From Pirellulaceae bacterium (lineage in GTDB: Bacteria > Planctomycetota > Planctomycetia > Pirellulales > Pirellulaceae): a stretch of DNA of 64,000 nucleotides. The notes below the pieces were generated by a model, which did not search any database, was not told the origin of the DNA, and saw only the letters and a list, made by a program, of their open reading frames with translations. Numbering within the stretch: the stretch's first letter is position 1; every line of letters starts with the position of its first letter. Of this stretch, positions 6,622 through 64,000 are shown piece by piece. The position numbers and the translations under genes are program-made. The stretch spans positions 62,001 through 126,000 of the forward strand of contig JAHBXT010000005.1 of assembly GCA_019636385.1 (NCBI GenBank). The letters are read 5' to 3'.

Positions 6622-6835
6622 TGACGGTCATGAAGACGGCGCGTAACGCTGGGCGGCTCTTGGTTGATGCAGCCTCTTTTTAGGTCCTCATTCTTCACCC
6701 TACGCCACCGGCGCTTGGGGCTCTCTTAAGCACAAAGGCAGAACATAGGCTGCGCGCTGTCGATATCGCACCAAAATCATCCACTCACTCAGCGACGCCA
6801 ACTACTGACTAATCCTGCAACTACTGCGGACTGCG

Positions 6836-7732: not shown

Positions 7733-8062
7733 TTTGTGAAGTCGGTTCCAATCGCAGTAAATCAGTTTACTCGGGCCCCGAACCATACCACCCACGATTT
7801 CTGAAACGCGACCGCTCACCGGAACGCTAAAATATCGCTACTTGCCTAGCGGGTGTCAAGCAAACAATAGAGGTGGCTGTGGACAATTCAGCTATGGTTG
7901 ATATGAAACGCTTTCTTGCCCTCAACTGTAACCAGAATCGCATCGAACGAGACCTGTCAGAGTGACCATTGATGGCCCGCGTGCCTTCCCAGATACAGTC
8001 CAATTAGCCATGATGTGACAGCTCGAATTTCGTAGCACGAGCGGATTAGAAATCATCAGTGA
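7733..8062. other. Intergenic region between mrr and the oxidoreductase gene
   Basis: About 330 bases between divergent genes. I see no convincing small gene, RNA or repeat. It must hold the promoters of both neighbours, but no clear -35/-10 pair could be chosen. Confidence 0.5.
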
Positions 8063-9485: not shown

Positions 9486-11402
9486 CTACTTGACGGGTGG
9501 TTTGACTAACTGGTCGATGATGCGATCCAGTTCGGTCCAGTGTGCGCCGGATTTGACGACGTTGCCGTTTTTATCCACAACGATGTTCACCGGCAGAGTC
9601 AATATACCGTAGCTGGTTGCTAGGCTGCTATCCAAGCCACCGGGGTCGTGGATGTGTGGCCATGGATAGGGATTCTGCTTGATGAATTGGTCAGCTTGAG
9701 CACGTTCTTTGTCCAAGTTAACACCCACAATCAACAGCTTGTGTTTAGCATACTTGGCCTGCAATTCTTTGAGAGCCCGCATGTCGGCTTTACAGCCTTC
9801 GCACCAGCTTGCCCAGCAGTGATAGACCACCGGTCGATCGCGAAAGGCGTTGGAGTTAAAGGTTTTGCCGTCAAGGGTTGTACCAGCAATACTGAATGGC
9901 TTGCCTTCCAGGTTCAGTCGGCGCAGTGCACCAGCGGCCTTCTTGCCGGAATCGGATGATGCATACCCTTTGGCGGCACGATCGTACCACCGGGCAGCTT
10001 CCTTGGCATCGCCATTGAATTCGGCGGCTAGCGCGATTTGCAGAATGGCCTCTGCGGAATCCTCGGCTTGTGGGTATTCTTCAATGAAGCCTCGCAGGCT
10101 AGCCAAGTAAGCTTCATTCAGCTCCTCGAACTTTGCCCCGGGTTGTTGCATATCCAAGTTGTGTTCAGCGGTAATTCTGCGGAACTCGACGTAGGCCAAA
10201 CTACTGGCATCGGCCCCGTTTTCTTTCAGCTTGGCAGAGAACTTGCGCAGGCGGTTGGTACCGTCGGGATACTCGCCGATTTGAGCGGCAGCGCTGACGG
10301 TGTCGGCCATCTGTTCGATCCAAATCGCACGGTCATCGGCAGACTGGGCGGAGGCGATCAGTTTGTCCAAAACGTCGGCGCGCCGCGCGTGCAGGCTGGC
10401 CTTGTCGTTGACGTCGCCATTTAGCTTGTCGTCTATTCCTTGCAGTTCGACGACCAGCGCCTCCAGGGACTTACTGATGCCCATCTCCGTTTCCGCTGTT
10501 GAGTTCTGACCGCGCGGATTGTAGGAAACATTGAAGAAGACTCCCGTATCTTCGGATGTCGCGTTGTCGCCGACTTTGCGGGGCAGGCTGGCTAGGCGCC
10601 ACGAGCCATCGACTTGAATCAGGGTGCCGATGATTAGTTGTCGAGCTTCACCGTCGTTGTCAAATAGCGCCACGGCGTTCTCGTATACGACAATATCCTG
10701 CTTGGAGGCGGCGGTACCAGCCGGAACGATTCCAGGCTTGTCGGCACCAAAATTGGTCCAGCGACTGGTGGCGGTGACTAATTGCTGTTGCCGCATCCAA
10801 CCGGGAAACTGATCGCGGGCTGTTTGTACACGAGCTTTCAGAGAGTCTGTCATCGCGCTGCCGAGTGCGAGCCCTTCGATTTGCGCTTCGGTAGGCAGTA
10901 ACCGCTGAAAGCGTTTGATGTCACCAGTCGCCAGAGCCTGGATAACTTCGTAAGAGATTTCCTCAGCGGAGATAATTCGCCAACTGTCGATGGTACCGTC
11001 TTCGTCGCTATCGATTCCCCAGCGCATGCCTTCGGTATTCAACCAGCGATATTCATCTGCGGTGCCATTAAAGTTTGTGTCTGATTCGCGATACACTTCG
11101 TCGCCAGCGTTGAAGTAGCACCAGCGATCTGGTTTGTTATCGCCGTTGGTGTCCACGAACCATCGCAGTGGCTGTCCAGCCGGGCCGGTTACCCAGAATC
11201 CTTTGCCATCGTCGCGAGCCACCTTTTCCAGCTTGCACTTACCCACTTCGTCGGCGCTTACCTTTTCGTAATTCACGTCGGCTTGGCGCGGCTTGAAGGA
11301 CAATGCCTTTGTCAGTTCGGTTGATTCGTTGGCCGCCAGCCGACTGAAGTTGGTGCTGAGCGCCAGGGCGACAAACAGACCGAGGAACATATCGCGTAGC
11401 AT
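9486..11402 (-). CDS. Secreted TlpA-like thioredoxin-domain protein with calcium-loop-like repeats
   Basis: The chosen start, ATG 11402, has a CAGGA site and gives a clean signal peptide (MLRDMFLGLFVALALS...), so the protein is exported; the frame is open to 11516. Near the N-terminus three acidic nonapeptides recur at 23-24 residue intervals: DTNGDNKPD (84-92), DTNFNGTAD (108-116) and DSDEDGTID (131-139), each followed by an aromatic residue. They resemble EF-hand or thrombospondin-type calcium loops. A long helical middle follows, and the last 140 residues form an AhpC/TlpA thioredoxin domain with the redox motif WCEGC (Cys534, Cys537) and the cis-proline segment LTLPVN. Related planctomycete proteins act as periplasmic or membrane-attached thiol-disulfide enzymes. 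It is 638 aa long, much more than a plain TlpA. Confidence 0.85.
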   Translation of the reverse strand: MLRDMFLGLFVALALSTNFSRLAANESTELTKALSFKPRQADVNYEKVSADEVGKCKLEKVARDDGKGFWVTGPAGQPLRWFVDTNGDNKPDRWCYFNAGDEVYRESDTNFNGTADEYRWLNTEGMRWGIDSDEDGTIDSWRIISAEEISYEVIQALATGDIKRFQRLLPTEAQIEGLALGSAMTDSLKARVQTARDQFPGWMRQQQLVTATSRWTNFGADKPGIVPAGTAASKQDIVVYENAVALFDNDGEARQLIIGTLIQVDGSWRLASLPRKVGDNATSEDTGVFFNVSYNPRGQNSTAETEMGISKSLEALVVELQGIDDKLNGDVNDKASLHARRADVLDKLIASAQSADDRAIWIEQMADTVSAAAQIGEYPDGTNRLRKFSAKLKENGADASSLAYVEFRRITAEHNLDMQQPGAKFEELNEAYLASLRGFIEEYPQAEDSAEAILQIALAAEFNGDAKEAARWYDRAAKGYASSDSGKKAAGALRRLNLEGKPFSIAGTTLDGKTFNSNAFRDRPVVYHCWASWCEGCKADMRALKELQAKYAKHKLLIVGVNLDKERAQADQFIKQNPYPWPHIHDPGGLDSSLATSYGILTLPVNIVVDKNGNVVKSGAHWTELDRIIDQLVKPPVK

Positions 11403-11858
11403 TCGATTCATCCTGTCGAGAATACGAGTTGGCTGGTCCTGGGGAAATCCGGCTTGAGCCATCGGTTGTGGACCAGCGGCAAACCGGGGGAGGGTAGCTC
11501 CGGGCTGTTGTAGCATTTGCCGGACGCGGCGCGAATCTCGCTTTTTCGAGAATCACAGGTTGTGCTGGATGCTCAATTTAGGTCGTGGCAGAGGCTCTTT
11601 GAGATGCCCGGTGCTAGCAAAACCTTGGGAAAATCGGCTTTCCGCTGAAGTTGGCTAGGCCGATTAGACGATCCGATTAGCCTGCCGTGCGCCAGAGGAC
11701 TGATGGCTGAGCCTAGTTGTTGGAAATTGATGCGAACTGTGAGTTGACAGGCCGCAGCCTTCGGCTACGATTTGCCAGCGGTTTGGCGGCTAGGGGGATC
11801 CTGGATCCTGTGGTCCGATGAGCCCAGAATTGTTCGTTTCGGCGAGCGATTCGAAGAT
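11403..11858. other. Region upstream of the tRNA/23S operon; no 16S rRNA
   Basis: These 455 bases between the divergent thioredoxin gene and tRNA-Ile hold the rRNA promoter at 11744-11771. None of the conserved 16S segments is present, so this rRNA operon starts with the tRNAs. Confidence 0.8.
11744..11771 (+). promoter_or_regulatory. Promoter of the tRNA-23S-5S operon
   Basis: A perfect -35 box TTGACA (11744-11749) is followed after 16 bases by TACGAT (11766-11771), about 88 bases ahead of tRNA-Ile. It is the best promoter match in the window, as expected for an rRNA operon. Confidence 0.7.
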
Positions 11859-11932
11859 GGGCGCGTAGCTCAGTTGGTTAGAGCGCGTCGCTGATAACGA
11901 CGAGGTCCCAGATTCGAATTCTGGCGCGCCCA
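11859..11932 (+). tRNA. tRNA-Ile (anticodon GAT)
   Basis: The 74-base cloverleaf has a perfect acceptor stem GGGCGCG/CGCGCCC, D arm GCTCAGTTGGTTAGAGC, anticodon stem CGTCG/CGACG with loop CTGATAA (GAT at 11893-11895), and T arm CCAGATTCGAATTCTGG. The 3' CCA is not encoded. Confidence 0.97.
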
Positions 11933-12013
11933 CTCGCGAAGTGTGAATTGAGAAGTTTGAGGCATGAAGATGCCCTTCAAACTTCACGCTTTTACGCTTC
12001 AAATGTTATTGCC

Positions 12014-12086
12014 GGGGGTGTAGCTCAGTTGGTAGAGCACTTGGTTTGCATCCAAGGGGTCATCGGTTCGAGTCCGTTCACCTCCA
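12014..12086 (+). tRNA. tRNA-Ala (anticodon TGC)
   Basis: The 73-base cloverleaf has the acceptor stem GGGGGTG/CACCTCC with the G3-U70 wobble pair that identifies alanine tRNAs. The anticodon stem is CTTGG/CCAAG with loop TTTGCAT (TGC at 12047-12049). The 3' CCA is not encoded. The Ile-Ala order is that of classic 16S-23S spacers, although no 16S is present here. Confidence 0.97.
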
Positions 12087-12627
12087 CTGGCGAGAAATTA
12101 CCGCCCGAATGCGGGCCCAAAAACGATTCCTGATGGAGATTGGATTAGGGCTTGTCAGGCGGTTGTAAATCGCGAAGATGACTTCCAGTTCAGCACAAGA
12201 TTTGGCGACGGGTTGACTGTTGCTCAGGCTTGTCTGAATGGGAGCCAGCCGGTTCGAAGTGGTCGATGCAAAGCAAGAATATTTTGGTTTGCGATTGACG
12301 GGTTTGTCCGGTGCTCCTAAAATACTCGACCCGCGATCCGATGACCTCTGGCTGCAGGACGTGGAATTGAGTTACTGATCTTTGACAATTTGGTTGATTG
12401 GTTATAGGCATCTTAACGCAGTGCTTGGTTAATTCTGAGTACTGCACACGACGCTGGACCAACCTGCGGACCGCGCGAGACTGCTTCGGCAGGCTTAGCG
12501 GGTTTTGATAGGTTGGACCGATTTTGAAAAGAGCGTTCCAAAGAGCGGAGTTGAGCGTAAAAGTTCAGCTCGATGAAGTCTCATCGAAGTTTTGGCGAAG
12601 TCATTTGACAGAGTTCAAAATTTCGGT
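12087..12627 (+). other. Spacer between tRNA-Ala and 23S rRNA
   Basis: This 541-base transcribed spacer contains a boxA-like antitermination site (12376-12393) and the left arm of the 23S processing stem (12616-12634). No protein gene is supported. Confidence 0.7.
12376..12393 (+). promoter_or_regulatory. boxA-like antitermination site ahead of 23S
   Basis: TGATCTTTGACAATTTGG matches the E. coli rRNA boxA (TGCTCTTTAACA) at 10 of 12 core positions, and the AATTTGG that follows is also as in E. coli. In rRNA operons boxA RNA recruits Nus factors. Confidence 0.5.
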
Positions 12628-43504: not shown

Positions 43505-46500
43505 CTACGTCTCGTATCCCAGATTCGGTGAAAGCCAGCGTTCGACTTCGGTTTGGCTGAGGCCTTTGCGGCGGGCGTAGGCTTGTACTTGATCTTGACT
43601 CACACGATCCACGGTAAAGTAGCGAGATTGAGGATGTGCAAAATAAAGTCCGCTGACGCTGGCTGCGGGCCACATGGCATACGACTCGGTCAAGCTGACT
43701 CCGGTGTGTGCCGTAGCGTCCAGCAGTTTAAATAAGATGCCTTTCTCAGTGTGATCCGGGCAGGCTGGATATCCCGGAGCGGGTCGAATACCGCGATACT
43801 GTTCGTCGATCAATTGCTGGTTGCTGAGTCCTTCACTGGCGCCAAATCCCCAATCGCGGCGCGCCTGCCGATGCAGCCATTCTGCAAACGACTCGGCCAG
43901 GCGATCGGCCAGGGCTTTGACCATGATGGCGTTATAATCGTCGCTGGCCTGTTGGTACTTCTGGGCCAGCTCGTCCACGCCTTCACCCGTAGTTACGACA
44001 AAGCCGCCGATGTAATCAGCTCGACCGCTGCCAACCGGCGCGATGTAGTCGGCCAGCGAGCGGAAGTCGGACTGACCCTTACGTTCCCATTGCTGGCGCA
44101 GAAAGTGCAAGCGATCCAGCTCGTGTTGGCGGCTATCGTCTTGGTACAAGATTACGTCGTCGTCTTGGCTATTGGCCGGCCAGAATCCGTAGACGGCGTG
44201 CGCGCGAATCAACTTTTGCGAAATAATCTTGTCCAGCATGACTCGCGCATGGTCAAACAATTCACGAGCCTGCTGACCGACCGTGGCATCGCTGAGAATC
44301 TGAGGATACTTGCCGCGCAGCTCCCAAGCCCAGAAGAATGGCGACCAGTCGATCGTCTCGACTAATTTCTGCAACGGGAAGTCCGGCAGCGACTTGATGC
44401 CGGTAAATGCCGGCACAGGGATATCGACGCTGGACCAATCGGTGGCAAATCGACGCTGGAGAGCTTCGGCATACGGAACCAGTTTGACCTGCCGCGCTTG
44501 GTAGCTGGCGACCAGTTCTTGTTGCAATCGCCGATTATCATCAGACAATTTGCGACGCGATTCAGAATTAGTCAATCGCTCGACAACCGGCACGCTGCGT
44601 GAGGCGTCCAGCACGTGAATCACCTCGTGTTCGTACTGGGGGGCGATTTTGACGGCGGTGTGTTTGGCGCTGGTCGTGGCGCCGCCGATCAGCAATGGCA
44701 GCGCCATGCCGCGCCGCTGCATCTGCTTGGCCACATGCACCATCTCGTCCAGGCTGGGCGTAATCAAGCCAGACAGTCCGATGACGTCGACGCCCAACTC
44801 CTGTGCCTGATCCAGAATTTTCTCGGTGGGAACCATGACGCCCAGGTCGATGACTTCATAGTTGTTGCACGCCAGTACGACGCCCACGATGTTTTTGCCG
44901 ATGTCGTGCACGTCGCCTTTGACCGTGGCCATCAAGACTTTGCCACGCGCTGAACCGCTAGCGACGCCGGCCTGGCGTTTTTCTTCTTCCATGAAGGGCG
45001 TCAAATAGGCCACCGCTTTCTTCATGACGCGAGCCGACTTGACGACCTGAGGTAGAAACATCTTGCCCGCGCCAAATAGGTCCCCCACGACGCTCATGCC
45101 GTCCATCAGTGGACCTTCGATGACCTCCAGGCAACGACTGCAAGACTGTCGAGCCTCTTCCGCGTCCTGTTCGATATACTTGTCAATTCCACGTACTAGT
45201 GCATGTTGCAAACGCGAGCGAACGTCAGCCTCGCGCCACGACAGGTCTTCGGTAGCCGCCTTCTTGCCCGCCGACTTGACGTTGTCGGCCAGTTCGATCA
45301 ATCGCTCCGTGGCATCAGGGCGACGATTCAACAGCACATCTTCCACGCGCTCCAGCAGGTCTTTGGGAATGTCCTCATACACCTCCAACTGTCCGGCGTT
45401 GACGATGCCCATATCCATGCCGGCGCGAACCGCATGATACAAAAACGCCGAGTGCATGGCTTCGCGAACATGATCGTTGCCGCGAAACGAAAAGCTGATA
45501 TTGCTGACGCCCCCACTGATTTTGGAGCCCGGACAGGCCCGCTTTATTTCGCGAGTCGCCTCGATGAAGTCCACTGCATAGTTGTTATGTTCCTCAATTC
45601 CGGTAGCCACCGTTAAGATATTGGGATCGAAGATGATGTCTTGTGGAGGAAAGCCAACCTGTTGGGTCAACAACTGATAGGCTCGCACACAGATGCGCAC
45701 TTTGTCGTCTTTGGTCACCGCCTGGCCTTGTTCGTCAAAGGCCATCACCACACAGGCCGCTCCGTATTGTCGGACCAGTCGGGCGCGGCGCAAGAATTCG
45801 TCTTCGCCATCCTTTAGGCTAATGGAATTGACAATCGACTTGCCCTGCGTGTTTTGTAGACCGGCCTCCAGAACCTCCCATTTGCTGCTGTCGATCATCA
45901 CGGGCACTTGAGCGATATCCGACTCACCGCCGATCAAACGTAGGAATCGAGTCATTGCAGCCACGCCGTCCAGCAACGCGTCATCCATGTTGATATCGAT
46001 GATCGTTGCCCCGCCCAGTACTTGTTGGCGAGCCACCTCGACCGCCTCTTCAAACTGATCATTGCGAATCAGTCGTGCGAAGGCCCGCGAACCGGTGACG
46101 TTGGTGCGTTCGCCGATCATCGTAAAGTTCGATTCTGGTCGCAGTGTCAGCGGCAGCGTACCGGACAAGCGAGTGTAGACCGACGGTGCCGGCTGCTGAT
46201 GTGGTCGCCTGCCAGCGACAGCGGTGGCAATGGCTCGAATGTGATCGGGAGTTGTCCCACAACATCCGCCAACAATATTCAGCCAGCCTTGCTCAGCAAA
46301 CTCGCCGATCATTTGTCCCATCGCGGCTGGCGATAGATCGTATTGTCCCATCGCATTGGGCAAGCCAGCGTTGGGATGACAACTGATGTTCGTGCCAGCG
46401 ATGTGCGACAACTCTTCGATGTGCGGACGCATGACATCCGGGCCCAGCGCGCAGTTCATGCCGATGCTGAGCATCGGAAAGTGGCTGAGCGCGTTCCAAA

Positions 46501-47203
46501 ACGCTTCCACGCTTTGACCGCTGACGAATGTGCGTCCGCCCTTATCAAATGTCCCGCTAACCATCACCGGAACCCGCCGCCCCGAATCGGTAAAGTACTG
46601 ACTGATGGCAAAGAGACAGGCTTTGAGATTCAACGTGTCGATTACGGTTTCCACTAGCAGAATATCGGTGCCCGCTTCCACCAGACTCGCGATCTGCTGA
46701 TAGTAAGAGTCGGCCATAATCTGGTAGGTCGTATTGCGGAAGGCCGGATCGTCTACTTTGGTACTGATCGCGGTCTGCTTGGCAGTGGGGCCAATGCTGG
46801 CGGCGACAAAGCGCGGGCGATCCGGAGTACGCTCGGAGAATTCCTCCGTCGCTCGACGCGCACAGGCCACCGCCGCATGATTGATTTCGGCTACCAGGCT
46901 GGGCGGAAGCTCGAACTCCTCCATGCCGACCGGACTTGCCCCAAACGTGTTGGTCGTAACGATGTCGGCACCAGCCGCTAGATACTGCCGATGAATTTCA
47001 ACCAGACTCTGCGGATGAGTCAGCGAAAGGATGTCGGTAAAGTTCTTCAGGTCTTTATGATGGTTTGCAAATCGCTGGCTGCGCATGTCGGCTTCGCTGA
47101 GTTTCAGCGCCTGCACCATTGTCCCCATGGCACCATCCAAAATGAGGATGCGCTCTGAGAGTGCTTGCAACAGGGCATCTGTGCGATCAGGGGTGGACGA
47201 CAT
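43505..47203 (-). CDS. metH: Cobalamin-dependent methionine synthase
   Basis: MetH transfers methyl from methyltetrahydrofolate to homocysteine through cobalamin. At 1,232 aa it is full length (E. coli: 1,227). Domains appear in order: homocysteine-binding with DGAMGT at the start and the zinc cysteines in GMNCALGP and [10 protein letters not shown]; pterin-binding with [11 protein letters not shown]12 cap and B12-binding with the His ligand in DVHDIGKN (about 766) and [10 protein letters not shown]-terminal activation domain with [15 protein letters not shown] and [12 protein letters not shown]. Nothing is missing. I looked upstream for a cobalamin or SAM riboswitch and saw none. ATG 47203 begins the conserved N-terminus. 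Confidence 0.97.
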
Positions 47204-47561: not shown

Positions 47562-48812
47562 ATGCAAAGAACAACATCGATTCGACCCGATCGAACGAGA
47601 CCCAATTCGCGTTCGCAGCCGCAAAATGTGCTGGAGAACATCCCGGTTCTGTTGCGCCTTCCGCGCGTCGAGCAACCCTCGTTTTCCAGCTCAACCGACT
47701 TTGGCGGTCACGCTCTAACAGCGGCTGACGAGGACGAGCAGTCGTTAGCGCAGCCAACTTCACGTACAGAAACTCGGTCGGCTTTCGCACAGCAGCCAGC
47801 CGAATTCGACAGTGGCTGGCGGCGTTCCTGGTGGGAGCACTGGTCTAGCGGCGTGGTCTTGATTGTCTTGATCATCTTGTTGATCCTGTTGAGCATTATA
47901 GCCTTTCGGCCGTCAGGCAAGTCGCATGAGGGTGCCAGTTCTTCAACGACATCCAACAGCGACTTTGGCGACCTGGATCAGATCACTGTACCTACGCTGG
48001 AAATTGTTCAAGATGACACCGGGCCGACCAGTACGCTAAACTCGCAGGCTGAATTCGAATTATTGCTCTCCGGTGAACCATCCAGTACCAACGACGCCGC
48101 ACAGAGCACAGCGTCTGAAGGCTCGTTGGCCAACCGTTCTTCAACCGAAGTGGAAAACGCTTTGGCCGACGGCTTAATGAACGCAGACATTTCGCCCGCG
48201 CTGACCACAACTCAATCTAATAACCAGCCAACCAGCCAGCTCGCGCAGGCTCAGTTGATGCAGCCCCAGCCCATCGAAGCTCAGAAATCGCTCTCGGCGG
48301 TCAGCGGCAGCGGGATACATACGCCGTTACCCGGTAGCCAATTACCCGGCAGCCAGCTCGCCAGCAATCAGCCCGTGGACAACCTGGCTGCAAACAACCT
48401 AGCTCAGAGCAACAGTCAAATACCATTGTCCAGCTCGCCCGTTTCCGGTTCACCAGCATTGCCTAACCTTACAGCACCGTCGCTGTCGGCAACCAGTATG
48501 CCGAATCTTGGAAGTGGAGACACTTCGCTGGCGCCAAACACCAAGATGGTCGGCACGGCTGGCGGATTGGCCTCTACAGTTGGAAATGCGACTGCTGGAA
48601 ATGCTGGGCCAACAGACACCAGTTCAATGACCGATGCGGTTACTGACGCAAATGCGGTACCAACAACGCCGACCATTCGCTCAACCTCCACGCCCGAAGC
48701 TGACGACGAGTCGATTATTCGGGCTTATCTGGAGCTGACGCGGACAGCCAAACGACCTGCCGAAACGACTGACGCCAAACAGCAGCTCAATCGATATCCG
48801 AATACCAAGTAG
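47562..48812 (+). CDS. Single-pass membrane protein with long low-complexity exterior, unknown
   Basis: The 416-residue protein has a soluble N-terminal part of about 90 residues, one very hydrophobic helix (GVVLIVLIILLILLSIIAF, about 97-115) and about 300 residues dominated by Ser, Thr, Asn, Gln, Pro and Leu. Short repeats such as LPGSQLPGSQLASNQPVDNLAANNLAQ occur in that part. I recognise no family. It is the first of three genes in one direction, with a degenerate tyrosine-autokinase-like ATPase and an ExeA-like ATPase behind it. In polysaccharide export systems a membrane co-polymerase usually precedes such an ATPase, but this protein has no Wzz-like features, so I do not assign that role. 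Confidence 0.7.
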   Translation: MQRTTSIRPDRTRPNSRSQPQNVLENIPVLLRLPRVEQPSFSSSTDFGGHALTAADEDEQSLAQPTSRTETRSAFAQQPAEFDSGWRRSWWEHWSSGVVLIVLIILLILLSIIAFRPSGKSHEGASSSTTSNSDFGDLDQITVPTLEIVQDDTGPTSTLNSQAEFELLLSGEPSSTNDAAQSTASEGSLANRSSTEVENALADGLMNADISPALTTTQSNNQPTSQLAQAQLMQPQPIEAQKSLSAVSGSGIHTPLPGSQLPGSQLASNQPVDNLAANNLAQSNSQIPLSSSPVSGSPALPNLTAPSLSATSMPNLGSGDTSLAPNTKMVGTAGGLASTVGNATAGNAGPTDTSSMTDAVTDANAVPTTPTIRSTSTPEADDESIIRAYLELTRTAKRPAETTDAKQQLNRYPNTK

Positions 48813-48885
48813 TGTTCCTAGAGCCCGGACACTGCACCTTTTCTTTGCATCTGGCTTTCCCAAGAACTTGACGGAACAAATCGCC

Positions 48886-50325
48886 ATGGCCTCCGACAAT
48901 TTGAACCGAGTTTTCATCAAAGCCTACGACAAAGGTAAGCCTGCGGTTGGCCAGTCTCCGAAGTCCACCCAGGGGGCCGCTGCGGGGAATGCTTACGCCG
49001 TTCGTTTTGACACCGCGACAGCGCACCCCACACCGCCACATTTGCTGACTCAACAGGCAGTTCGTCAACAGGCTCCGACCGTAGCGCAGCCAAACAATCT
49101 GACCAATCAAGCTCCAGCGCCCATGCCAATCGCTGCCGAGCAGTTTCAGTATCAACTGCAACCACAATATCAACAAAACGCCCTCCAGGCGTCGGAAGCG
49201 GCAACTGCCAGTCTATCAGTACCGAATGTCCAACAATCCAACTACGTTCAGCCTCAATCGCCCTATGCAGCCAACCAAGCGGGAAGCGGCATGCCGGGAG
49301 GTTCGCAGTCAGTCTCGGGACAGCAGCCATGGCAGGATGTGGCCCCCCACACAAGCCAGATTCAGCCGTCCACAGCGGCGCGCCGTGACGTTCAGCCTGC
49401 CAGGCTAGACGACCAGATTGCTGCCAAGAATCGGGACGGCGGCATTTTTCGCCTGGACCGTCCGAGCTACGTGCAGGACACAGCCTCGCAAGACCCATAC
49501 ATCGACAGCGATTGCAGCGAGCAGTCGGCCGTTATTCATCAACTGGGCAGTCATTCCGACACAAGCCAAGACGCACAGACGCACCGACCCAACGCTGGTC
49601 CGCGATCCGGTGCGGATCAGATGTCGCAAGCCATGGCCAAAGAAAGGCAGCTACGTCAAGCCCGCTCGCGCATCTTCAATCCGTTGTGGGAAGTCGATCG
49701 CCTGGAATGGCCCTGGGTGTGCAATCAATTGCTGGATACGATCGGAGAACGCTCATCGGCCATCGCGCAGCATCTACTTGAGGCTTGCCAAGACGGCTTG
49801 CAGGTGTTGGCAGTTACCAGTCCTCAGGGCGGGACAGGAACATCCACTGTGGCGTGCTGCTTGGCCATGTTAGCTGGCAAGCGCGGACTGAACGTCGCAT
49901 TGGTCGATGGCAATACTGAGAATCCATCGCTATGCTACCAAACCAATCTGGAGTTGGAAGTCGACTGGCAAGAAGCGTTGGCTCGACAACTGCCGCTGGA
50001 AGAGATTGCTGTCCACTCGGTTGAAGACCAAGTTACCTTGGTCCCGTTGCTTGAGCGGTTGAGTGCGCCGTCACTCGACGAGCACAGTATGGCGCTGATG
50101 TTGCAGGAGCTGTCACAAAGCTTTGATTTGGTATTGGTCGATCTAGGTCACATGTCCGTGCCGCGCAGTCTGGTTTATTCGCTAGGCGAGCTGGGTGCAC
50201 TCAGTGCCGTGGTGGCCGTTGTCGATCGCCGCCACACATCGACCGAACGCTTGGAATCTTGTCTGCGGCAGATCCGGCAAACGGGAATTTCGTCCATCGG
50301 GCTGATTGAAAACTTCGCCGCCTAA
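48886..50325 (+). CDS. MinD/tyrosine-autokinase-like ATPase with a degenerate P-loop
   Basis: The 479-residue protein has a Gln/Pro/Ser-rich N-terminal half and, from about residue 270, a domain of the MinD/BY-kinase (CpsD/CapB) fold. The P-loop reads AVTSPQGGTGTSTVACCLAM: Gln314 replaces the deviant-Walker signature lysine and Thr319 replaces the usual GK[ST] lysine, so both lysines are absent. The Walker A'-like segment VALVDGNTENPSL and Walker B-like LVLVDLGH are kept. The C-terminus has no tyrosine cluster. It may have lost catalysis and act as a scaffold. ATG 48886 is preferred over TTG 48868. The gap to the ExeA-like gene is 21 bases. Confidence 0.75.
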   Translation: MASDNLNRVFIKAYDKGKPAVGQSPKSTQGAAAGNAYAVRFDTATAHPTPPHLLTQQAVRQQAPTVAQPNNLTNQAPAPMPIAAEQFQYQLQPQYQQNALQASEAATASLSVPNVQQSNYVQPQSPYAANQAGSGMPGGSQSVSGQQPWQDVAPHTSQIQPSTAARRDVQPARLDDQIAAKNRDGGIFRLDRPSYVQDTASQDPYIDSDCSEQSAVIHQLGSHSDTSQDAQTHRPNAGPRSGADQMSQAMAKERQLRQARSRIFNPLWEVDRLEWPWVCNQLLDTIGERSSAIAQHLLEACQDGLQVLAVTSPQGGTGTSTVACCLAMLAGKRGLNVALVDGNTENPSLCYQTNLELEVDWQEALARQLPLEEIAVHSVEDQVTLVPLLERLSAPSLDEHSMALMLQELSQSFDLVLVDLGHMSVPRSLVYSLGELGALSAVVAVVDRRHTSTERLESCLRQIRQTGISSIGLIENFAA

Positions 50326-50346
50326 CCATCGCATTCGGGAATTCAG

Positions 50347-51177
50347 ATGTACGAAGAATACTGGCGCCTGCAAGCTCGCCCCTTTGAAAACCGCATCGGC
50401 CACGAGCAATATTACCCAGCCGAGTCGCACCAGGCGGCTCTGTTGAAACTTCGGTATGCCATCGAAAACCGCCGCGCCGCCGCGCTGCTGTGTGGTCCCA
50501 GCGGGATGGGTAAGTCGTTGATTGCCGACATGCTATTACGACAACTGGATGATACATTTCGTCCGCTGCAGCACGTCGTTTTTCCGACGTTGGAAAGCAG
50601 CCAATTGCTACGCTATTTGGTGCAACAAGTCGATACTCAAAACAGCGAATGGCCGCGTGAAACTTCGGCTGACTTGGTGCGCTTCGAGCGGCTGTTGGTC
50701 AACAACATCCAGGCTGGGCGCCATGGGGTAATTGTGGTCGATGAAGCACATCTGCTGGAACAGCATGGCCTGCTCGAGCCGCTACGGCTGCTATTGAATG
50801 TGGCTGCCAATCAATCGCCAGGAGAGTCTGCCTGGACGTTGGTCTTGGTTGGACAACCCATCGTGCTGTCGCATGTTGAACGTTACCAGCCTCTGGACGA
50901 ACGATTGGCGGTCAAATGTATGCTCAATCGACTGCTACCCGAAGAAACGGTAGGATACATCCAGCATCGCTTGCGTGCCGTAGGAGGTGACAGTCAACGC
51001 GTGTTTAACGAAGCGGCTCTGGAACGCATTCATCAGCTTGCACACGGCATTCCTCGTAAGATCAACCGCCTGTGCGATCTAGCGCTGATGGTCGGCTATG
51101 CTGAAGAGTGCCCGATCATCAGCGCCGACGTTGTGGCCAGCGTTCACAACGACTTAGTCACGCCCGTGGTAGGCTAG
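50347..51177 (+). CDS. ExeA-like AAA ATPase
   Basis: The 276-residue protein starts MYEEYWRLQARPFENR, typical of ExeA/GspA-type ATPases, and has Walker A GPSGMGKS (50-57) and Walker B VIVVDEAHLL (128-137). The segment RLAVKCMLNRLLPEETVGYIQHRL and the late LAHGIPRKINRLCDLAL are conserved in this family. Members work in secretion (ExeA with ExeB) or are linked to exosortase-associated exopolysaccharide loci. Here no secretin or GspB partner follows. With the preceding degenerate ATPase it repeats the kinase-ATPase pairing seen beside exosortase systems, which is suggestive only. Confidence 0.88.
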   Translation: MYEEYWRLQARPFENRIGHEQYYPAESHQAALLKLRYAIENRRAAALLCGPSGMGKSLIADMLLRQLDDTFRPLQHVVFPTLESSQLLRYLVQQVDTQNSEWPRETSADLVRFERLLVNNIQAGRHGVIVVDEAHLLEQHGLLEPLRLLLNVAANQSPGESAWTLVLVGQPIVLSHVERYQPLDERLAVKCMLNRLLPEETVGYIQHRLRAVGGDSQRVFNEAALERIHQLAHGIPRKINRLCDLALMVGYAEECPIISADVVASVHNDLVTPVVG

Positions 51178-54192: not shown

Positions 54193-54653
54193 TCGTCCCA
54201 TATTCTTAACAATTCGTGCTGCCTAATGTAGTACTTTGCATTTATCAGAAAAACCAACAAATCACCGTCCGGCTGAAAGCATTCAACCAGTGCCAGCCAA
54301 GCCTGGCGCGGGCAACTTCCTTTCAGCTCGACACGGGCCAGGCGTCCGCCAAAATCATACAGCATGCCATCGACCTGCCAGGCTTCCCGTGCGGCACGGT
54401 CTCCCCATGGCCCATCCGCCGTCCAGACAAATGACCCGTCAGGCTCAATGTGCATGCGCGGCAATTGTTCCAGCATTTCACAAGCACGCTCGAAACTATG
54501 TTCCATCTGCCGCTGCACAATCGAGCCGCTCGGCTGGCTGTGTGGCACAAGCACACTGCGCAACCGAATGCCATAGTAATCAAACTCGGTACCGGCCCGC
54601 AGATCGCTACTCGGTGTACGAAACAGGTGTAGATTCAGTGCAGGTAGTTTCAT
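54189..54653 (-). CDS. Protein of unknown function in the kinase operon
   Basis: The 154-residue product shows no signal peptide and no family I recognise. It appears to be an alpha/beta protein with segments GTEFDYYGIRLRSVLVPHS, RMHIEPDGSFVW and GWxGDRAAREAWQVDGMLYD-like acidic and aromatic residues, and ends with a hydrophobic strand DLLVFLINAKYYIRQHELL. It overlaps both neighbours by ATGA junctions, the kinase upstream (54653) and the methyltransferase downstream. This indicates strict cotranslation and a shared job. Confidence 0.75.
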   Translation of the reverse strand: MKLPALNLHLFRTPSSDLRAGTEFDYYGIRLRSVLVPHSQPSGSIVQRQMEHSFERACEMLEQLPRMHIEPDGSFVWTADGPWGDRAAREAWQVDGMLYDFGGRLARVELKGSCPRQAWLALVECFQPDGDLLVFLINAKYYIRQHELLRIWDE

Positions 54654-56143
54654 CGGGAGGCAACGATATAACCCAGAATCGCTCCCAACAGCAGCGCCAG
54701 CGGGACCACGATGGCAACGGTTACGGCAACGATCATCGCTGCACTGGTGGTCGGCTGAATTGAAGGCGGCGTGAGCATTGATTCCGGCAAGCTTGGCGTA
54801 CCCGCAGCTATGGCCGCTGGCGCGCCTCCACTGGGCATCAGCAATCCGAGGTCTGGTGCTAATGAGTCACAGGCGGATGGATTCCTGTCAGGTCGGGGGA
54901 TATTCGTGGATTCCGCCGCATCTGAACCCAGTGCGCCGTCGGTGCCAACCGACCCTAATGATCGCTCGGTGCCCTGCAGACTCTGCCCAATCGAAGCCTG
55001 TGATCGCCCATCATCAACCAGCGAGGTTTCACTAATCTCTTCGTGTGATGGAGGAGGTGGGGCCATCCACGGCGAGCGTGTCATGCCAATCGTGCCCAAG
55101 CTGTGTTCATCGCTGATCCAGGGCTCCAACCGTGCGGCTACCTGAGCTGCACTTGCAATCCGCTTGCTAGCGTCCTTCTCCATCATGTCGGCGATGATGT
55201 CTACGAAATCTTCGGCAATGTCGGGCACAAATCGTCGAGGGTGCATGGGGCTATCTTCTAAGTGCCGCCGCAATTTCGACTTGGTGTCTCCGCCCGGGAA
55301 GGGAACCTTTCCGCTGACCGCATAGTACAACGTGCAGCCCAGCGAATAAATGTCCGATACCGACTGGACTTGCAGCGGTGTGCGAATCTGTTCCGGCGAT
55401 AAGTAGTCGGCAGTACCGACTATCTTGCCGGCGCGAGGATCGCTGACCAGGTCTTTGGCAAATCCGGCCAGCCCAACATCGGAGACTTTGGCATCGCCGT
55501 CGGGCGTGACCAGGATGTTGCCCGGCTTGACGTCGCGATGCACCAAACCGGTGCGATGCGCATAGTCTAGTCCTAAGGCGGCATGCATGATGATCTTGGC
55601 GGCTTGAGAAACTGCCAACGGCCCGTGACTTTTGACCAGTCGCCGCAAATCCATGCCTGGTACAAATTCCGTCACTAAATAATGCACATTGCCGTCTTGC
55701 CCTGCATCATAGGCACGCACCAAGTAGGGACAGTCCAGTGCTGCCTGCATGCGAATTTCATGCACAAAATTTCGCCGCGATTCAGAAGTGGCTCGCGATT
55801 GCGGCAGCACTTTCACAGCACAGATACGCCCCATCACATGATGCACCGCTTTGAACACCTGACCCATGCCACCTTGCCCAATCCAATCGGTGATGACGTA
55901 TGAGCCAAGGCTAAACCGAGTGCGCCCCGTGAGCAATTGATCGGCTTGGTAGGCGGTCACGATCTCTTGCTCGACCAATATGTCCGCCAACAATCGGTCG
56001 GAAATTAGTTCGGCTTGGGAGACTCCCTGTTGCGTCAGGCGATGACGGGCGACCCGCAAGCAATAGTCCAATTGCTGGCGTGAAACCAAGCCGCTGGCCA
56101 GCCCCGAGGCTTGCAGCAATGTACCCGTGGTTTCCGTGGACAT
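54650..56143 (-). CDS. PknB-like Ser/Thr protein kinase with C-terminal membrane anchor
   Basis: The 497-residue protein has a planctomycete-style N-terminal helical region (about 10-75, ending with IVTAYQADQLLTGR), a Hanks-type kinase domain (about 80-345) and a Pro/Ser linker. A membrane helix near 470-490 leaves almost no exterior. Kinase motifs: GQGGMGQVF, AVKVL (Lys111), HRDVKPGN (Asp204), DVG (222-224) in place of DFG, and SPEQ. All catalytic residues are kept; the DFG Phe to Val change is conservative. It is the first gene of an operon with two further cytoplasmic proteins and is divergent from a PP1-type phosphatase, a likely antagonist. Confidence 0.94.
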   Translation of the reverse strand: MSTETTGTLLQASGLASGLVSRQQLDYCLRVARHRLTQQGVSQAELISDRLLADILVEQEIVTAYQADQLLTGRTRFSLGSYVITDWIGQGGMGQVFKAVHHVMGRICAVKVLPQSRATSESRRNFVHEIRMQAALDCPYLVRAYDAGQDGNVHYLVTEFVPGMDLRRLVKSHGPLAVSQAAKIIMHAALGLDYAHRTGLVHRDVKPGNILVTPDGDAKVSDVGLAGFAKDLVSDPRAGKIVGTADYLSPEQIRTPLQVQSVSDIYSLGCTLYYAVSGKVPFPGGDTKSKLRRHLEDSPMHPRRFVPDIAEDFVDIIADMMEKDASKRIASAAQVAARLEPWISDEHSLGTIGMTRSPWMAPPPPSHEEISETSLVDDGRSQASIGQSLQGTERSLGSVGTDGALGSDAAESTNIPRPDRNPSACDSLAPDLGLLMPSGGAPAAIAAGTPSLPESMLTPPSIQPTTSAAMIVAVTVAIVVPLALLLGAILGYIVASR

Positions 56144-57203: not shown

Positions 57204-58730
57204 ATGGGCCAGAACTGCCAATGGACAATGTGTTGCGCAAGTGGCCGACGCCTGCGGCAGTGGTGCATGTGGGCAATTTTGATGTGGATGGCCACCGGCA
57301 CCAGCTTGTGGGCGCAGTCTGGGGCGGTCAAACAGGCGTCAGCGTCCAAGGTTTCAGCACGACTGGCAACTTGCCCCAATTGCAACCAGGATCAGTCGGC
57401 GGGCGGTCACCGCTCAGCAGCGCCCGTTCCAGTGCCCGCAGAGCATTTCTCCAACACGCCGATCGCGCTGGATGAGACTTCTAGTCGTTCACAAGAAGTG
57501 ATGGAGGATGCTTGCAACTGCGGCTGCGTGTCCGGTTGTTCAGATTGTCGTCAAACTGGCTGCCGTAACGGTTGCTGTACTGACGGAGGCTGTGATTGTG
57601 GAGGTAGAGCAGCTTGCCGTGGCGATGACGAATGCTGTTCGGTGGGGCCACGAATATGTGGCGATGGTTGGCCTCCCGGTCCCCTTGCGCGGCTGTTGTG
57701 TCGCCTGAGCGTTCGAGCCGAAGTGCCACTGTTTTGGCGCAAAGGGCACGATACGCCTCCACTGGTATCCACAGGTCCGTCTGCGGCAGCAGCCGATACG
57801 AATATTTTGCAGCAAGGCGATTTCGGTCAAGATGCGAACGCAGGCTTCCGCATAACGCTATCCACATGGCTCGACCCATGCCAAAACCATGGCATTCAGT
57901 TTCGCTTCTGGAACGCCGGCACTCGCAACGATAACCATCTCTTTGATTCCGACAGTACCCCCATCCTCGCCCGCCCCTTTCGCAATACGTCGGTCAGTGG
58001 ATCACCAGCCAATGATACACAAGTGATCGCTGCTACCGGCGACAGCACCGGCTCGATCGCGGTGCGCGGCTGGTCCGAGCTTTATGGGCTGGATGTCAAC
58101 CTGAAGCGCCTGTTGTATGCCGATCGGTTTACGCGACTGGATTGGACGTACGGCTACCAATACTTCACGCTCGGCGAACGACTGCGCATCGACTCGCAGA
58201 CAACGCTCATTCGCGACATACCTCCACTACAAACAGGCACTACTATCGGTGTCATGGATCACTTTCAAACGCAGAATCGACTGCATGGCACGACATCCGG
58301 GTTTATGTGCACGCGGCGCATCGCCTGCTTTCAGCTAGAGAGCATGTTTCGCCTGGGCATGGGCAATCTGAATCGCGAGTTAAGTGTGCGCGGCAGTACA
58401 ACCACAACCTCTGGCAATACGACCAATACCGAACAACAGGGCCTGTTGGCCCGCGAAACGAACCGCCGCACGATAATCGACAACACCTTTGTGATTTCGC
58501 CAGAGGTTGGTGTGAACCTTGCCTGGGCGCTCAGCCCGATGGTCGATTTTACGGTCGGCTACAACTATTTGATGGTCCCCAAAGTCTATCAGGCCAGCGG
58601 GTTGATAGACCGTGACTTGACCGTGAATCTATCTGATCCGCTAACCGGATCGCTCGATCCATCGCTCCGACTTTCGCCCACGCGTTATTGGGTTCGCTCG
58701 TTGGGGTTAGGCCTGCAGCTTCGGTACTAA
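57204..58730 (+). CDS. BBP7-type outer-membrane barrel protein with Cys-rich N-terminal segment
   Basis: The 508-residue protein starts at ATG 57204 behind GGGGGA and has a signal-like hydrophobic segment (about 18-37, ending SLWAQ). Residues 104-152 contain 14 cysteines in 49 residues, mostly as CxC, CxxC and CC spaced by Gly/Asp. The remaining 340 residues show alternating aromatic and polar strands (TLSTWLDPCQNHGIQFRFW, LDWTYGYQYFTLGERLRI, VDFTVGYNYLMVPKVYQ) and an aromatic C-terminus LGLGLQLRY. These are as expected for an outer-membrane barrel and close to the planctomycete BBP7 family. The Cys-rich segment may bind metal or crosslink the protein in the wall. Confidence 0.8.
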   Translation: MGQNCQWTMCCASGRRLRQWCMWAILMWMATGTSLWAQSGAVKQASASKVSARLATCPNCNQDQSAGGHRSAAPVPVPAEHFSNTPIALDETSSRSQEVMEDACNCGCVSGCSDCRQTGCRNGCCTDGGCDCGGRAACRGDDECCSVGPRICGDGWPPGPLARLLCRLSVRAEVPLFWRKGHDTPPLVSTGPSAAAADTNILQQGDFGQDANAGFRITLSTWLDPCQNHGIQFRFWNAGTRNDNHLFDSDSTPILARPFRNTSVSGSPANDTQVIAATGDSTGSIAVRGWSELYGLDVNLKRLLYADRFTRLDWTYGYQYFTLGERLRIDSQTTLIRDIPPLQTGTTIGVMDHFQTQNRLHGTTSGFMCTRRIACFQLESMFRLGMGNLNRELSVRGSTTTTSGNTTNTEQQGLLARETNRRTIIDNTFVISPEVGVNLAWALSPMVDFTVGYNYLMVPKVYQASGLIDRDLTVNLSDPLTGSLDPSLRLSPTRYWVRSLGLGLQLRY

Positions 58731-60399: not shown

Positions 60400-62043
60400 C
60401 TACTTGGGCTCAGTAGCTTCGCTCACAGTAGGAGTTGCAGCTGACGAATTTGGCTGTGCCATTGGCGGACTGGGTTTCCATGCGAGCACGGCTGCTGCCA
60501 TGTCTGGCATGTGCAGTTTCAGATACTCGGTCGCCAGTTTCTTGCGAGTTTGAGGTCTGTTGGGTTGCATTGCAATGGAGGATTCCAAGGCGCGAATCGC
60601 CGCTACAGAATCACCACTGCTTGCCAGTATTTCACCATAGGTGTCTAACCGTTCCGCATCGGGGCCGCCAACCTGAATCGCCGTTTCAATTAACTGCTTG
60701 GCACGAGCCAACTGACCGGGCTGGTGACGAGCCAGGCACAGGGCCAGATTGTTGAGGATGTACGGATTGTTCGGAGACAAGCTAACGGCAACTTCCAGAT
60801 GCACGATTGCCTGCTGGAATTGGCTCTGACGGATGTTACTGATCCCCATTAGCAAGTGTGAAATCGCTGTGGCGCGGCCTGCGGCGATCTGTTCGCGTAG
60901 ATGCCCCACTAACTTGTCGTTGGTTATCCGGCGCAGTGCCACCAACTCGGCGATTTTTTCCTGCAACACAGGGTTGGTCGAATCTGCGGTCAGGGCCATA
61001 TCCAGTAACGTCAAATCAACCTCATAGCGCTCTTCGGTTACCTTTTTTGTCTTCTCGAATCGCAACAAATACGCGTCGGATAACAAACGCTTCAACTGCG
61101 GATCTTCTTTGTATTCGCTCAATCCCTCAGTCGCCAGCCGAATGGCTCGCTCGTCGTCCTCGCCCACAAGCAACAGTGAAACTAACTGCACATAGTCTTG
61201 ATCCGTAGCGGTACCTTGCTGGAATTTTTGGCGATTGTCATCCAGTAGCTGTTGTCTGACAGTCAAGTATTCTTCTTCCCGACCGTTGCGCTTGGCGATC
61301 TGGGCGATGCGTACCTTGGCCATGGGATCACTGGAGGAAAGGTCGCCCAGAATGGCTAACGCTTCAGTCACACGACCGTCGCGCTCAAGCAGGTCTGCAT
61401 ACACGTTCATGAGAGCTGGAGTAACATTTGGCCACGCGCGCGCCGCCTCTAAGTCATGCAGCAACTCATTGCGCTCCTTATTGTTGGAAACGGCCTTGGT
61501 CTGAATTTGGTCGGCAGCTAACCACGCATGTGCGCCGGCGAATCCGCGCGCTCCTAGCGGCGCAATGCGGCGCATCAATTGGCGGGCTTGCCCGGCGCGC
61601 CCCTGTTGACCAAGTGCCGTGGCCACCAAATAAATCGCGCGATCGTTCGAGTTGGAAATCTGAAATATTCTTCGGAGCAAGAGCATCGCAAACGGAGTTA
61701 CATGCTCGTCATGCACTAGCGTGAAACTCTTGCCGCCAGGTCCACTTCGAACTTCGGCCACTGCTGGACTGGATGTCTCGGGTGCTAGCTGGTTTGCAGC
61801 CATTTCGGATTCCACCAGGTTCCAATAGGTTTCCAATTGATTATCCGAACCAACCCAAGGAATAAGCGATGAGTGGATCAGCATAAAAGCCAGTACCGCG
61901 ATCAATGGAATCGCAAACATGGCATTCCACCAACTGCGGGTGCGCAGCCAAGAGATCCATAGTTCGTACAAACCAAACACAAACGTACCGGGACTAAGCA
62001 ATAGCCGCAGCAAATCTACAAATATTTGAAAGGTGGTAACCAT
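60400..62043 (-). CDS. Membrane-anchored TPR protein paired with the exosortase-like gene
   Basis: The 547-residue protein has one or two N-terminal hydrophobic segments (about 4-28 and 40-57) and then a long helical domain with TPR-like units, for example AIVHLEVAVSLSPNNPYILNNLALCLARHQPGQLARAKQLIETAIQ and RLDTYGEILASSGDSVAAIRALESSIAMQPN. The C-terminal tail is Pro/Ser/Ala-rich. It starts 29 bases after the exosortase-like stop, so both are surely on one transcript. TPR proteins such as PrsT accompany several exosortase loci, where they are thought to assist export. No Shine-Dalgarno is visible before ATG 62043. Confidence 0.8.
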   Translation of the reverse strand: MVTTFQIFVDLLRLLLSPGTFVFGLYELWISWLRTRSWWNAMFAIPLIAVLAFMLIHSSLIPWVGSDNQLETYWNLVESEMAANQLAPETSSPAVAEVRSGPGGKSFTLVHDEHVTPFAMLLLRRIFQISNSNDRAIYLVATALGQQGRAGQARQLMRRIAPLGARGFAGAHAWLAADQIQTKAVSNNKERNELLHDLEAARAWPNVTPALMNVYADLLERDGRVTEALAILGDLSSSDPMAKVRIAQIAKRNGREEEYLTVRQQLLDDNRQKFQQGTATDQDYVQLVSLLLVGEDDERAIRLATEGLSEYKEDPQLKRLLSDAYLLRFEKTKKVTEERYEVDLTLLDMALTADSTNPVLQEKIAELVALRRITNDKLVGHLREQIAAGRATAISHLLMGISNIRQSQFQQAIVHLEVAVSLSPNNPYILNNLALCLARHQPGQLARAKQLIETAIQVGGPDAERLDTYGEILASSGDSVAAIRALESSIAMQPNRPQTRKKLATEYLKLHMPDMAAAVLAWKPSPPMAQPNSSAATPTVSEATEPK

Positions 62044-62072: not shown

Positions 62073-63878
62073 TCAATTGACAGCAGCATTCTGCAGCATT
62101 CCAGAAACCAACCTGGACTGTATGGATTTTCTAATCGTTGCAAAAAAGATTTGTAGATCGTCGATCTGCTGCGCCGTCAACCGTTCGCCCGACTCGCAAA
62201 ATACAAAAATTTCGTAGATTAAACGACCAGAATTGCCTAGCTGGTTATCGGCTGTCAGTCGCGAGATTAGCGGCAACCCAGCGCTGTCGTCAGTCTGCCG
62301 AACAGGACAAGGTTTCAAGTCATCCTGCAGACCACATTGCCAAAGATAGTTGTGACCACCCAGATCGTTCACGTACTGACACCAGTACCAGGGCCAGGCG
62401 GATTGGGCATCAGCGTCGCGGTGCAGTTGAATTATCGGAGCCTTAGCTATTCGGGACTTGATTTCCGGCGGTTGCCACTCCAGTTGCGGTGCTTTTAGAT
62501 GAACTTGAACCATCAGACCCGACCAGCGATAGTCAACTTGAACTGCCAGCCGTCCCTTGGTTGACTCTGAGTCCGACATTGCCACATCGCGTTCTGGCCA
62601 GGCAACATGGAGTAACTCGAACGAATCGAGCCGTTGTGGAAATAGGCGATCATCGACGACCGCTGCGAAGGGCTGTAAGTCCAAATTCGGGTGAACGGTC
62701 TTGGGAGGCACCAATCCGCTGACACTAATCGCCACCAAGCTGGCTACCAAGCCGCTGACCAGCAACAATCCGCTAATGGTCAATGCAGCCGTCGCGTGCC
62801 ACCGAGTGCCCCATCGAAGGTCTAACTCGTTGACCACTTTCGATCCTGATTGGACCTGAAGCGACTGTAATTCGGCCTGTTCGTCAGGGTCCTGAGGTAG
62901 TTCCAAGACGAACGTTTCCTCTTTCGGCCAAATCATCAGCTCGTTGGCAGCCGCAAATATCGGTAGCGTCTCGGGATCGGTCATCGGCACTGGACGAAGC
63001 ATGGCAGCCACCACTCGATCCGAGCAGATCAGCAGCAGCATGATGCCCAAAATTGCTCCCCCTGCAATCCAGTAGTGCGCCTGACCCATTGCCCAATTAT
63101 CCTGATAGTGCGTCAAGCCATACGTTGTAGCCAGCATGGCCCCAAAACGCCCAGCCATGACCCATAATGGCAATACCATGAACAGCAGCAGGCAATGCAA
63201 CATACTGGCTGAACGAAACCAACACCCAATGGCGGTGCAGCAGATGACAGCGTACAAGCTGACTCTGTGACTGAGCACCGACGAGATCGCGACCTGACCC
63301 TGCTTGACATACAGCACGGAATCTTCCAGCAGGTTAGGTATTTGACGGCTGTCCAGCGCTTGCGAAGACATTTGTCCAGCGGTCTCGGTCAACCAGCGAT
63401 CTAAATCGGTATACAGGCCCGGTACCGGAATGGTAATCGCTAACAGGCATCCCCAGCCAAACACTTCATACCACGCCTGCTGACCGCAGCGCACTAACCC
63501 CCAGGCGACCAAGAAAATGGCAGCAGCAGCTTGAACGAACTCAAACTGCCATTGCATGACGCCCACGGCGAAACACACCGAGGCTACAAGATTAGCGGCA
63601 ATCGCTATTGCGATACGCCAGTGATTCTGTGTTAGCTGCCAACTTCGACAGGTGGCTGAGACAACGACGGCCACAAACAGCCAAACCAACACGCCCAATT
63701 GCGTTTTGGGGTCAGCCCACAGATGCATGGCTTGCCCAAATAGCAGCGGCCCGATAGCCAGGGCTGGCAACAGACCGGCAACCAGATTCCATACGATTGG
63801 GCCAGAAAGAGCCATCCCACGCAACTGCGGCTCCGCCTCCGGAACGGCGGTTACAACCGGAGGAAGTTCATCGCCCAC
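62073..63878 (-). CDS. Exosortase-like membrane protein lacking the expected catalytic cysteine
   Basis: From GTG 63878 (AGGAG seven bases upstream) the protein is 601 aa: an N-terminal exosortase-like core with about eight or nine membrane helices (to about 290), a cytoplasmic linker, another helix near 385-410 and a soluble EpsI-like C-terminal domain of about 180 residues. The core shows IPVPGLYTDLDRWLT and later Arg244 (MAGRFGAML) and His268 (AHYWIAG), which match the conserved Arg and His of exosortases. Where the Cys-Ser-Gly motif should lie, the sequence reads VAISSVLSHRVSLYAV, with no Cys (Ser199/Ser200 by position). C213/C214 are the nearest cysteines. It may be inactive, act differently, or be a divergent planctomycete type. 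TTG 63911 is an alternative start. Confidence 0.75.
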   Translation of the reverse strand: MGDELPPVVTAVPEAEPQLRGMALSGPIVWNLVAGLLPALAIGPLLFGQAMHLWADPKTQLGVLVWLFVAVVVSATCRSWQLTQNHWRIAIAIAANLVASVCFAVGVMQWQFEFVQAAAAIFLVAWGLVRCGQQAWYEVFGWGCLLAITIPVPGLYTDLDRWLTETAGQMSSQALDSRQIPNLLEDSVLYVKQGQVAISSVLSHRVSLYAVICCTAIGCWFRSASMLHCLLLFMVLPLWVMAGRFGAMLATTYGLTHYQDNWAMGQAHYWIAGGAILGIMLLLICSDRVVAAMLRPVPMTDPETLPIFAAANELMIWPKEETFVLELPQDPDEQAELQSLQVQSGSKVVNELDLRWGTRWHATAALTISGLLLVSGLVASLVAISVSGLVPPKTVHPNLDLQPFAAVVDDRLFPQRLDSFELLHVAWPERDVAMSDSESTKGRLAVQVDYRWSGLMVQVHLKAPQLEWQPPEIKSRIAKAPIIQLHRDADAQSAWPWYWCQYVNDLGGHNYLWQCGLQDDLKPCPVRQTDDSAGLPLISRLTADNQLGNSGRLIYEIFVFCESGERLTAQQIDDLQIFFATIRKSIQSRLVSGMLQNAAVN

Positions 63879-64000
63879 GGCTGCTCTCCTAGACCGCCGC
63901 CAACAAACCAACAGCTAACCCACCATCGAACTCACACAATAATCCTCCACATGAGGACTGATGGCGGTCGGCCCAATTCTCCATGCTGGGATGGCTATAA

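Follow-up and report, generated by a model that had tools for sequence, protein, structure and literature searches.

A gene set of the Pirellulales centred on a BY-kinase-like protein without its P-loop lysine: a possible scaffold module for an envelope process

We describe three genes in a stretch of DNA of 64,000 nucleotides, hereafter the window, from a Pirellulaceae bacterium (assembly GCA_019636385.1, contig JAHBXT010000005.1, positions 62,001 to 126,000). The three open reading frames, referred to here as A, B and C, are located on the forward strand at 47562-51177, as the preliminary description of this DNA had placed them. They encode a single-pass membrane protein of 416 amino acids with low-complexity tails (A; 47562..48812), a protein of 479 amino acids that resembles the bacterial tyrosine kinases (BY-kinases) without their P-loop lysine (B; 48886..50325) and an ExeA-like AAA ATPase of 276 amino acids (C; 50347..51177). 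The spacing of 21 bases between B and C was given correctly in that description. Comparison with relatives indicates that the three genes are kept together across the order Pirellulales and that the lysine of B was lost early and for good, and B is most consistent, in sequence and as modelled, with a natural BY-pseudokinase.

Relatives were gathered, together with their flanks, from 60 genomes and then from 148 genomes of the order; many of these are draft assemblies, and gene starts were assigned mechanically. Relatives of B were found in 58 of the 60 related genomes searched, the weakest matches there being ordinary BY-kinases, and the searches for relatives found neither B nor C in genomes G016 and G019. 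A search of genome contigs with B as the query returned one close and one distant relative, and the open reading frame coordinates at the locus of the close one are the same as on the G012 contig. In 76 of 89 Pirellulales loci the gene directly after B on its strand is C, no more than 300 bases away in 75 of them, and a protein with one transmembrane segment is encoded upstream of B in about 80 of 85. The gene order that the preliminary description proposed to look for in other Pirellulales is thus conserved across the order. The locus is also marked by metH (1232 amino acids; 43505..47203, reverse strand in the window), a conserved divergent neighbour upstream of A which is found in this arrangement in 52 of the 89 loci; for 11 of the remaining 37 the upstream DNA is too short to judge. 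In 13 loci C is absent while B, and mostly A as well, is retained, which indicates that B is more than a partner of C.

Two start codons are available to B, TTG at 48868 and ATG at 48886. We adopted the latter because the N-termini of the family align there (MASDNLNRVFIKAY). From this start B comprises an N-terminal peptide, a disordered linker, the motif WEVDRLEWPWVC and a P-loop fold; in the family MSxLDQAFI[KR]AY is followed by a linker that differs greatly in length, which leads to WEVDxFxWPxxC and then to the folded domain. The N-terminal peptide (48886..48927, forward strand) is a putative docking site for C. Scored with a leave-one-out weight matrix at a 99.9% shuffle threshold, it occurs in 71 of 73 loci that have C compared with four of 12 that do not (Fisher 4e-7, uncorrected for phylogeny). 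On the tree C changes about ten times, with only one pair on well supported branches, and the association is consequently not significant after phylogenetic correction. We note that the motif searches in A and B were chosen post hoc, so that figures derived from shuffles overstate significance somewhat.

The degenerate P-loop of B, TSPQGGTGTST (49816..49848, forward strand), has Thr319 at the lysine position. As had been described from the window alone, the Walker A' strand (ALVDGN) and the Walker B strand (LVLVD) of BY-kinases are both retained. Among 88 Pirellulales loci the lysine position is occupied by arginine in 48, cysteine in 18, alanine in ten, threonine in five, valine in four, glycine in two and serine in one, and in none by lysine. 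The other residues of the P-loop and Walker motifs show a very different pattern, with the preceding glycine and the following serine or threonine present in 88 of 88, the Walker A' aspartate in 86 and the Walker B aspartate in 87. On the domain tree the lysine position changes at least 21 times, never to lysine. A branch with a support of 96/100 separates 47 of 48 B rows from the lysine-bearing BY-kinases of the phylum, two of which come from the same genome as B; the only B row off that branch is fragmentary (20% filled). We therefore rule out a sequencing error or a strain-level change at this site. None of the 88 has a normal GK[ST] motif, which together with the wide occurrence of B is well beyond chance, and the sequences point to a loss that is ancient and fixed. 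Which residue occupies the position is unconstrained, and this speaks against catalysis by the arginine; the conservation of the remaining pocket suggests that it is needed to bind nucleotide or for structural reasons.

The preliminary description counted two missing lysines, at Gln314 and Thr319. Numbered from the ATG, both residues are as it stated, but only Thr319 represents a loss relative to the nearest family, since BY-kinases (for example SEAPGAGKS in CapB) never had the MinD lysine at the position of Gln314. The MinD signature KGGxGK[ST] is accordingly unmet in B, which has glutamine and threonine at its two lysines in the window; a first-position lysine is found in two or one of the 88, depending on the alignment column. 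The same description regarded B as a dead ATPase. A lysine mutant of CapB still carries ADP-Mg (PMC3795738), and the structure of the K540M mutant of Wzc was solved with ADP (PMC11986026). With the other pocket residues of B kept, the designation is a fair guess for catalysis only and should not be extended to nucleotide binding.

Several other P-loops in these genomes deserve mention. The genome of the window encodes two adjacent full-length Wzc-like BY-kinases with lysine-bearing P-loops (locus L183, G000:C7:27000-46000; 6740-9262 and 10006-12612, reverse strand). A diverged B of the order in G043 (L197, 3745-4719, reverse strand) reads GEGRTT and seems to have lost the Walker A' aspartate as well; it is adjoined by a C-like gene that lacks the part between its two matched segments. 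The P-loop lysine is also replaced, apparently by separate losses, in other BY-kinase domains of the phylum: L093 (G199), L104 (G179) and L181 (G139), with GTT, GVS and GSS.

An AlphaFold2 model of the B domain, built with 51 aligned domains, has a mean pLDDT of 92.2. Its best Foldseek match is the Wzc kinase domain (PDB entry 3la6; E value 2.7e-11, TM score 0.65), followed by CapAB, VpsO and BceF, with FlhG and MinD behind. Profile scores for the window protein are weak (ParA, BcsQ and BY-kinase families), the best being EpsG at 37 bits and eps_fam at 34 bits, both far under their cut-offs. When the 51 members were scanned, eps_fam matched 50, pepcterm_TyrKin 49 and EpsG 48; the MinD, Ssd/CpaE and ParA profiles match many of them too. 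The C-terminal tyrosine cluster is absent, with no tyrosine or one in the last 25 residues of the 88 members. The EX2RX2R oligomer motif occurs as a pattern in only nine of the 88, mostly at positions that look like chance, and ring formation by this route was set aside.

A gave no Pfam or NCBIfam match above cut-off, and these profiles found no Wzz, Poly_export or type II secretion domain in it. This agrees with the earlier statement that the set corresponds to neither a standard Wzc/Wzz nor a standard ExeAB system. Its single strong hydrophobic segment comprises residues 97-115 (mean hydropathy 3.46) and is preceded by an interfacial SWWEHWSSG; together (residues 90-115; 47829..47906, forward strand) they combine invariant columns (W90, W91, H93, W94, S95, S96 and G97) with one of the only two confident helices of the structure model, the other being residues 382-397 near the C-terminus, where the window protein has the motif NRYP. 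The remainder is modelled as disordered. The exterior of A was expected to be disordered and rich in serine, glutamine and asparagine; it is indeed of low complexity, but its composition (S 16.5%, A 11.7%, T 11.7%, P 8.6%, N 7.1%, Q 6.4%) is better described as rich in serine, alanine and threonine. Outside the genus the A proteins were chosen by position and transmembrane segment, not by homology. Of 85 A proteins, 80 have a single transmembrane segment, and among the 69 whose orientation could be decided by charge an N-in arrangement is favoured for 51. Ahead of this segment the window protein has a cytoplasmic short motif region, NIPVLLRLPR (47634..47672, forward strand), which corresponds to the family pattern [PR]VL[FIL]R[LIV]P[DN]L. 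The pattern is present ahead of the transmembrane segment in 34 of 85 A proteins, compared with 1.4 predicted by shuffles, and PVLFRLP is conserved within the genus. It occurs in loci without C too, and for this reason may dock B. At the C-terminus A[RKQ][LFI]xGx[IVL] is found in 20 of 85 (0.07 expected), and within the genus the helix is accompanied by NRYQ.

The identification of the third protein as an intact ExeA-like ATPase was confirmed. C has an intact Walker A (GPSGMGKS) and Walker B (VIVVDEAH), and the Walker A lysine is kept in 76 of 76 loci. It matches PF13401 and TIGR03015 (XrtA-associated ATPase), the latter with 154 bits against a cut-off of 324.5. In the Pfam and NCBIfam profiles C shows an AAA domain only, with no transmembrane segment and no peptidoglycan-binding domain. 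The suggested pairing of a dead with an active ATPase is not obligatory, since B persists in the 13 loci that have no C. Our literature searches found nothing on ExeA in Planctomycetes, nor on ExeA together with an exosortase and a tyrosine autokinase.

The closest precedents for B are the BY-pseudokinases EcpK of Myxococcus xanthus, which acts with EpsV, and HfsB of Caulobacter, which acts with HfsA, both proposed as phosphorylation-independent scaffolds (PMC12004946). Like them, B consists of a BY-kinase fold standing on its own, has neither the catalytic lysine nor the tyrosine tail, is encoded together with a membrane partner and is proposed here as a scaffold; direct binding to that partner, needed for polysaccharide output, is a further mark of this kind. 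No Walker motif survives in EcpK, whereas in B the lysine is the sole element missing and both Walker aspartates remain. Their partner is a Wzz-type polysaccharide co-polymerase (PCP-2), while A is a disordered protein with one transmembrane segment and no Wzz match, and only the Pirellulales module has an ExeA-like ATPase and a putative N-terminal docking peptide. Compared with the BY-kinases Wzc, CapAB and VpsO, B shares the fold and the Walker A' and B aspartates but has no lysine, tyrosine cluster or Wzz domain, and in most members no EX2RX2R. The order of a kinase followed by an ExeA-like ATPase is also that of the XrtA/PEP-CTERM-type pair (autokinase TIGR03018, ATPase TIGR03015), whose profiles are among the nearest for B (49 of 51 match) and the nearest for C. 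Both scores remain far under cut-off (30.9 against 230.7 for B; C as given above), and A-B-C differs further in its lost P-loop lysine and in having no adjoining Wzz, exporter or exosortase. ExeA/GspA of type II secretion shares with C an AAA_22 ATPase domain with intact motifs; C differs in having neither the transmembrane segment nor the peptidoglycan-binding domain, and there are no secretion genes nearby.

Outside the order, locus L182 (G082) contains a row of Poly_export, Wzz-like, kinase (GEGKTT), ExeA-like and glycosyltransferase-like genes, which is an exopolysaccharide (EPS) locus with Wzz in the position of A. A PMT_2-type glycosyltransferase is encoded downstream of A-B-C in nine loci. 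A gene of this type also stands beside metH in L196 (G019) and L198 (G016), both without A-B-C, and may thus be an old member of the locus; the G019 copy has no Pfam match and a similar start only. A standard EPS operon was rejected for the window, where no Wzz, exporter or polymerase adjoins the genes.

In our view, with a probability of about one half, A-B-C is a scaffold module specific to the Pirellulales that serves an envelope process and derives from the BY-kinase and ExeA-type ATPase pair of EPS loci. In this reading the catalytic lysine and the C-terminal tyrosine cluster of B disappeared before the Pirellulales diversified. B should therefore not autophosphorylate, although it retains the fold of a kinase and probably its nucleotide pocket; it should serve as a scaffold that is either gated by nucleotide or constitutive, a hub free of phosphorylation. 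A would be the membrane partner in the Wzz position, its N-terminal cytoplasmic peptide probably docking B and its long flexible outer tail, which ends in a conserved peptide, reaching a periplasmic partner. The MSxLDQAFIKAY peptide of B, on its disordered tether, probably recruits C, which would be the motor and supply the work by hydrolysing ATP. An envelope glycan or glycoconjugate is the likeliest cargo. Our proposal of an order-wide envelope machine, with a lysine-less BY-kinase fold as its hub and short linear motifs on disordered tethers joining A and C, and with neither polysaccharide co-polymerase nor phosphorylation, is more tentative. The preliminary description spoke of a new envelope machine; this is possible, but since BY-pseudokinases are known (EcpK and HfsB; PMC12004946) it is better called a variant.

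Several observations weigh against the proposed scaffold module. C is dispensable, being absent in 13 loci, and the link between the N-terminal peptide and C loses significance once phylogeny is corrected for, although the tree test is underpowered. The PMT_2 gene is found in a minority of loci and is not adjacent to the module in the window, and the window's own genome has just one weak PMT_2 relative, located elsewhere. The case for an EPS ancestry depends on the names of profiles and on a single clear locus outside the order, and A has no detectable homology to Wzz.

We also considered that B could be a positioning protein of the MinD, TadZ or FlhG type which labels a pole or site and brings A and C there, its descent from an EPS kinase being incidental. 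Pirellulales bud at one pole, the long low-complexity tails of A and B would suit clustering, MinD and FlhG are the next-best folds and the MinD, Ssd/CpaE and ParA profiles match many members of the family. BY-kinase structures and profiles nevertheless outscore those of MinD, no amphipathic C-terminal membrane-targeting sequence was recognized in B and an ExeA-type neighbour is typical of EPS loci, so that we regard this explanation as unlikely. The probability is low that the set is instead an ExeAB-like system, in which C and A would correspond to ExeA and ExeB and, with B as an adaptor, would open or remodel the peptidoglycan for some envelope complex. Its appeal lies in the ExeA-like AAA protein and in the topology of A, where a short cytoplasmic part, one transmembrane segment (N-in in 51 of 69) and a long outer tail recall ExeB, but the 276-residue C has neither membrane segment nor peptidoglycan-binding domain, A has no T2SSB or PilP domain and B persists where C has been lost.

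The substitutions in the P-loop can be read in two further ways. B might be an active variant ATPase or kinase in which arginine or another residue replaces the lysine. Arginine, the most conservative replacement, is also the commonest (48 of 88), the rest of the pocket hardly varies and a family with a KGGVGR-variant P-loop exists (NF047398, a weak match in 37 of 51 members). Yet cysteine, alanine, threonine, valine, glycine and serine occur too, and at least 21 changes on the tree are unlike the behaviour of a catalytic residue; no tyrosine cluster is left and the window genome itself has threonine, which makes an active enzyme quite improbable. Alternatively, the drift at the lysine position, the strong divergence of A and the absence of the module from G016 and G019 might reflect decay, with B a dead paralogue drifting after its function was lost. 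This is very improbable and already contradicted by the order-wide conservation: reading frames are intact across about 20 families, the gene order is kept, and the glycine, serine or threonine and aspartate residues of the pocket and the N-terminal peptide of B are near-invariant.

Other features of the window complete the description of the locus. Downstream of C, from 51418, is a glutaminyl-tRNA-synthetase-like gene that was identified by eye from the sequence. Further along are a Ser/Thr protein-kinase-like protein with a C-terminal transmembrane segment (54650-56143, reverse strand), recognized from its sequence only, and a large secreted-looking protein with a cysteine-rich start, a β-strand-like C-terminus and no NCBIfam match (57204-58730, forward strand). 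At 62073-63911 on the reverse strand there is an exosortase-like gene (PF09721, 41 bits; XrtU C-terminal domain NF033780, 23 bits, under cut-off), followed by a gene for a tetratricopeptide repeat protein (60400-62043, reverse strand). The exosortase was rejected as a part of the module: relatives of it were detected in this genus only, and they are encoded on other contigs or at a distance of about 1.7 Mb from A-B-C.

The retention of a pseudoenzyme throughout the order, beside an intact ATPase and a conserved housekeeping gene, points to a core envelope function in the Pirellulales. The module also shows BY-pseudokinases in a second architecture, one that does without a Wzz-type partner, and its short conserved peptides may serve as direct handles on which partners bind.

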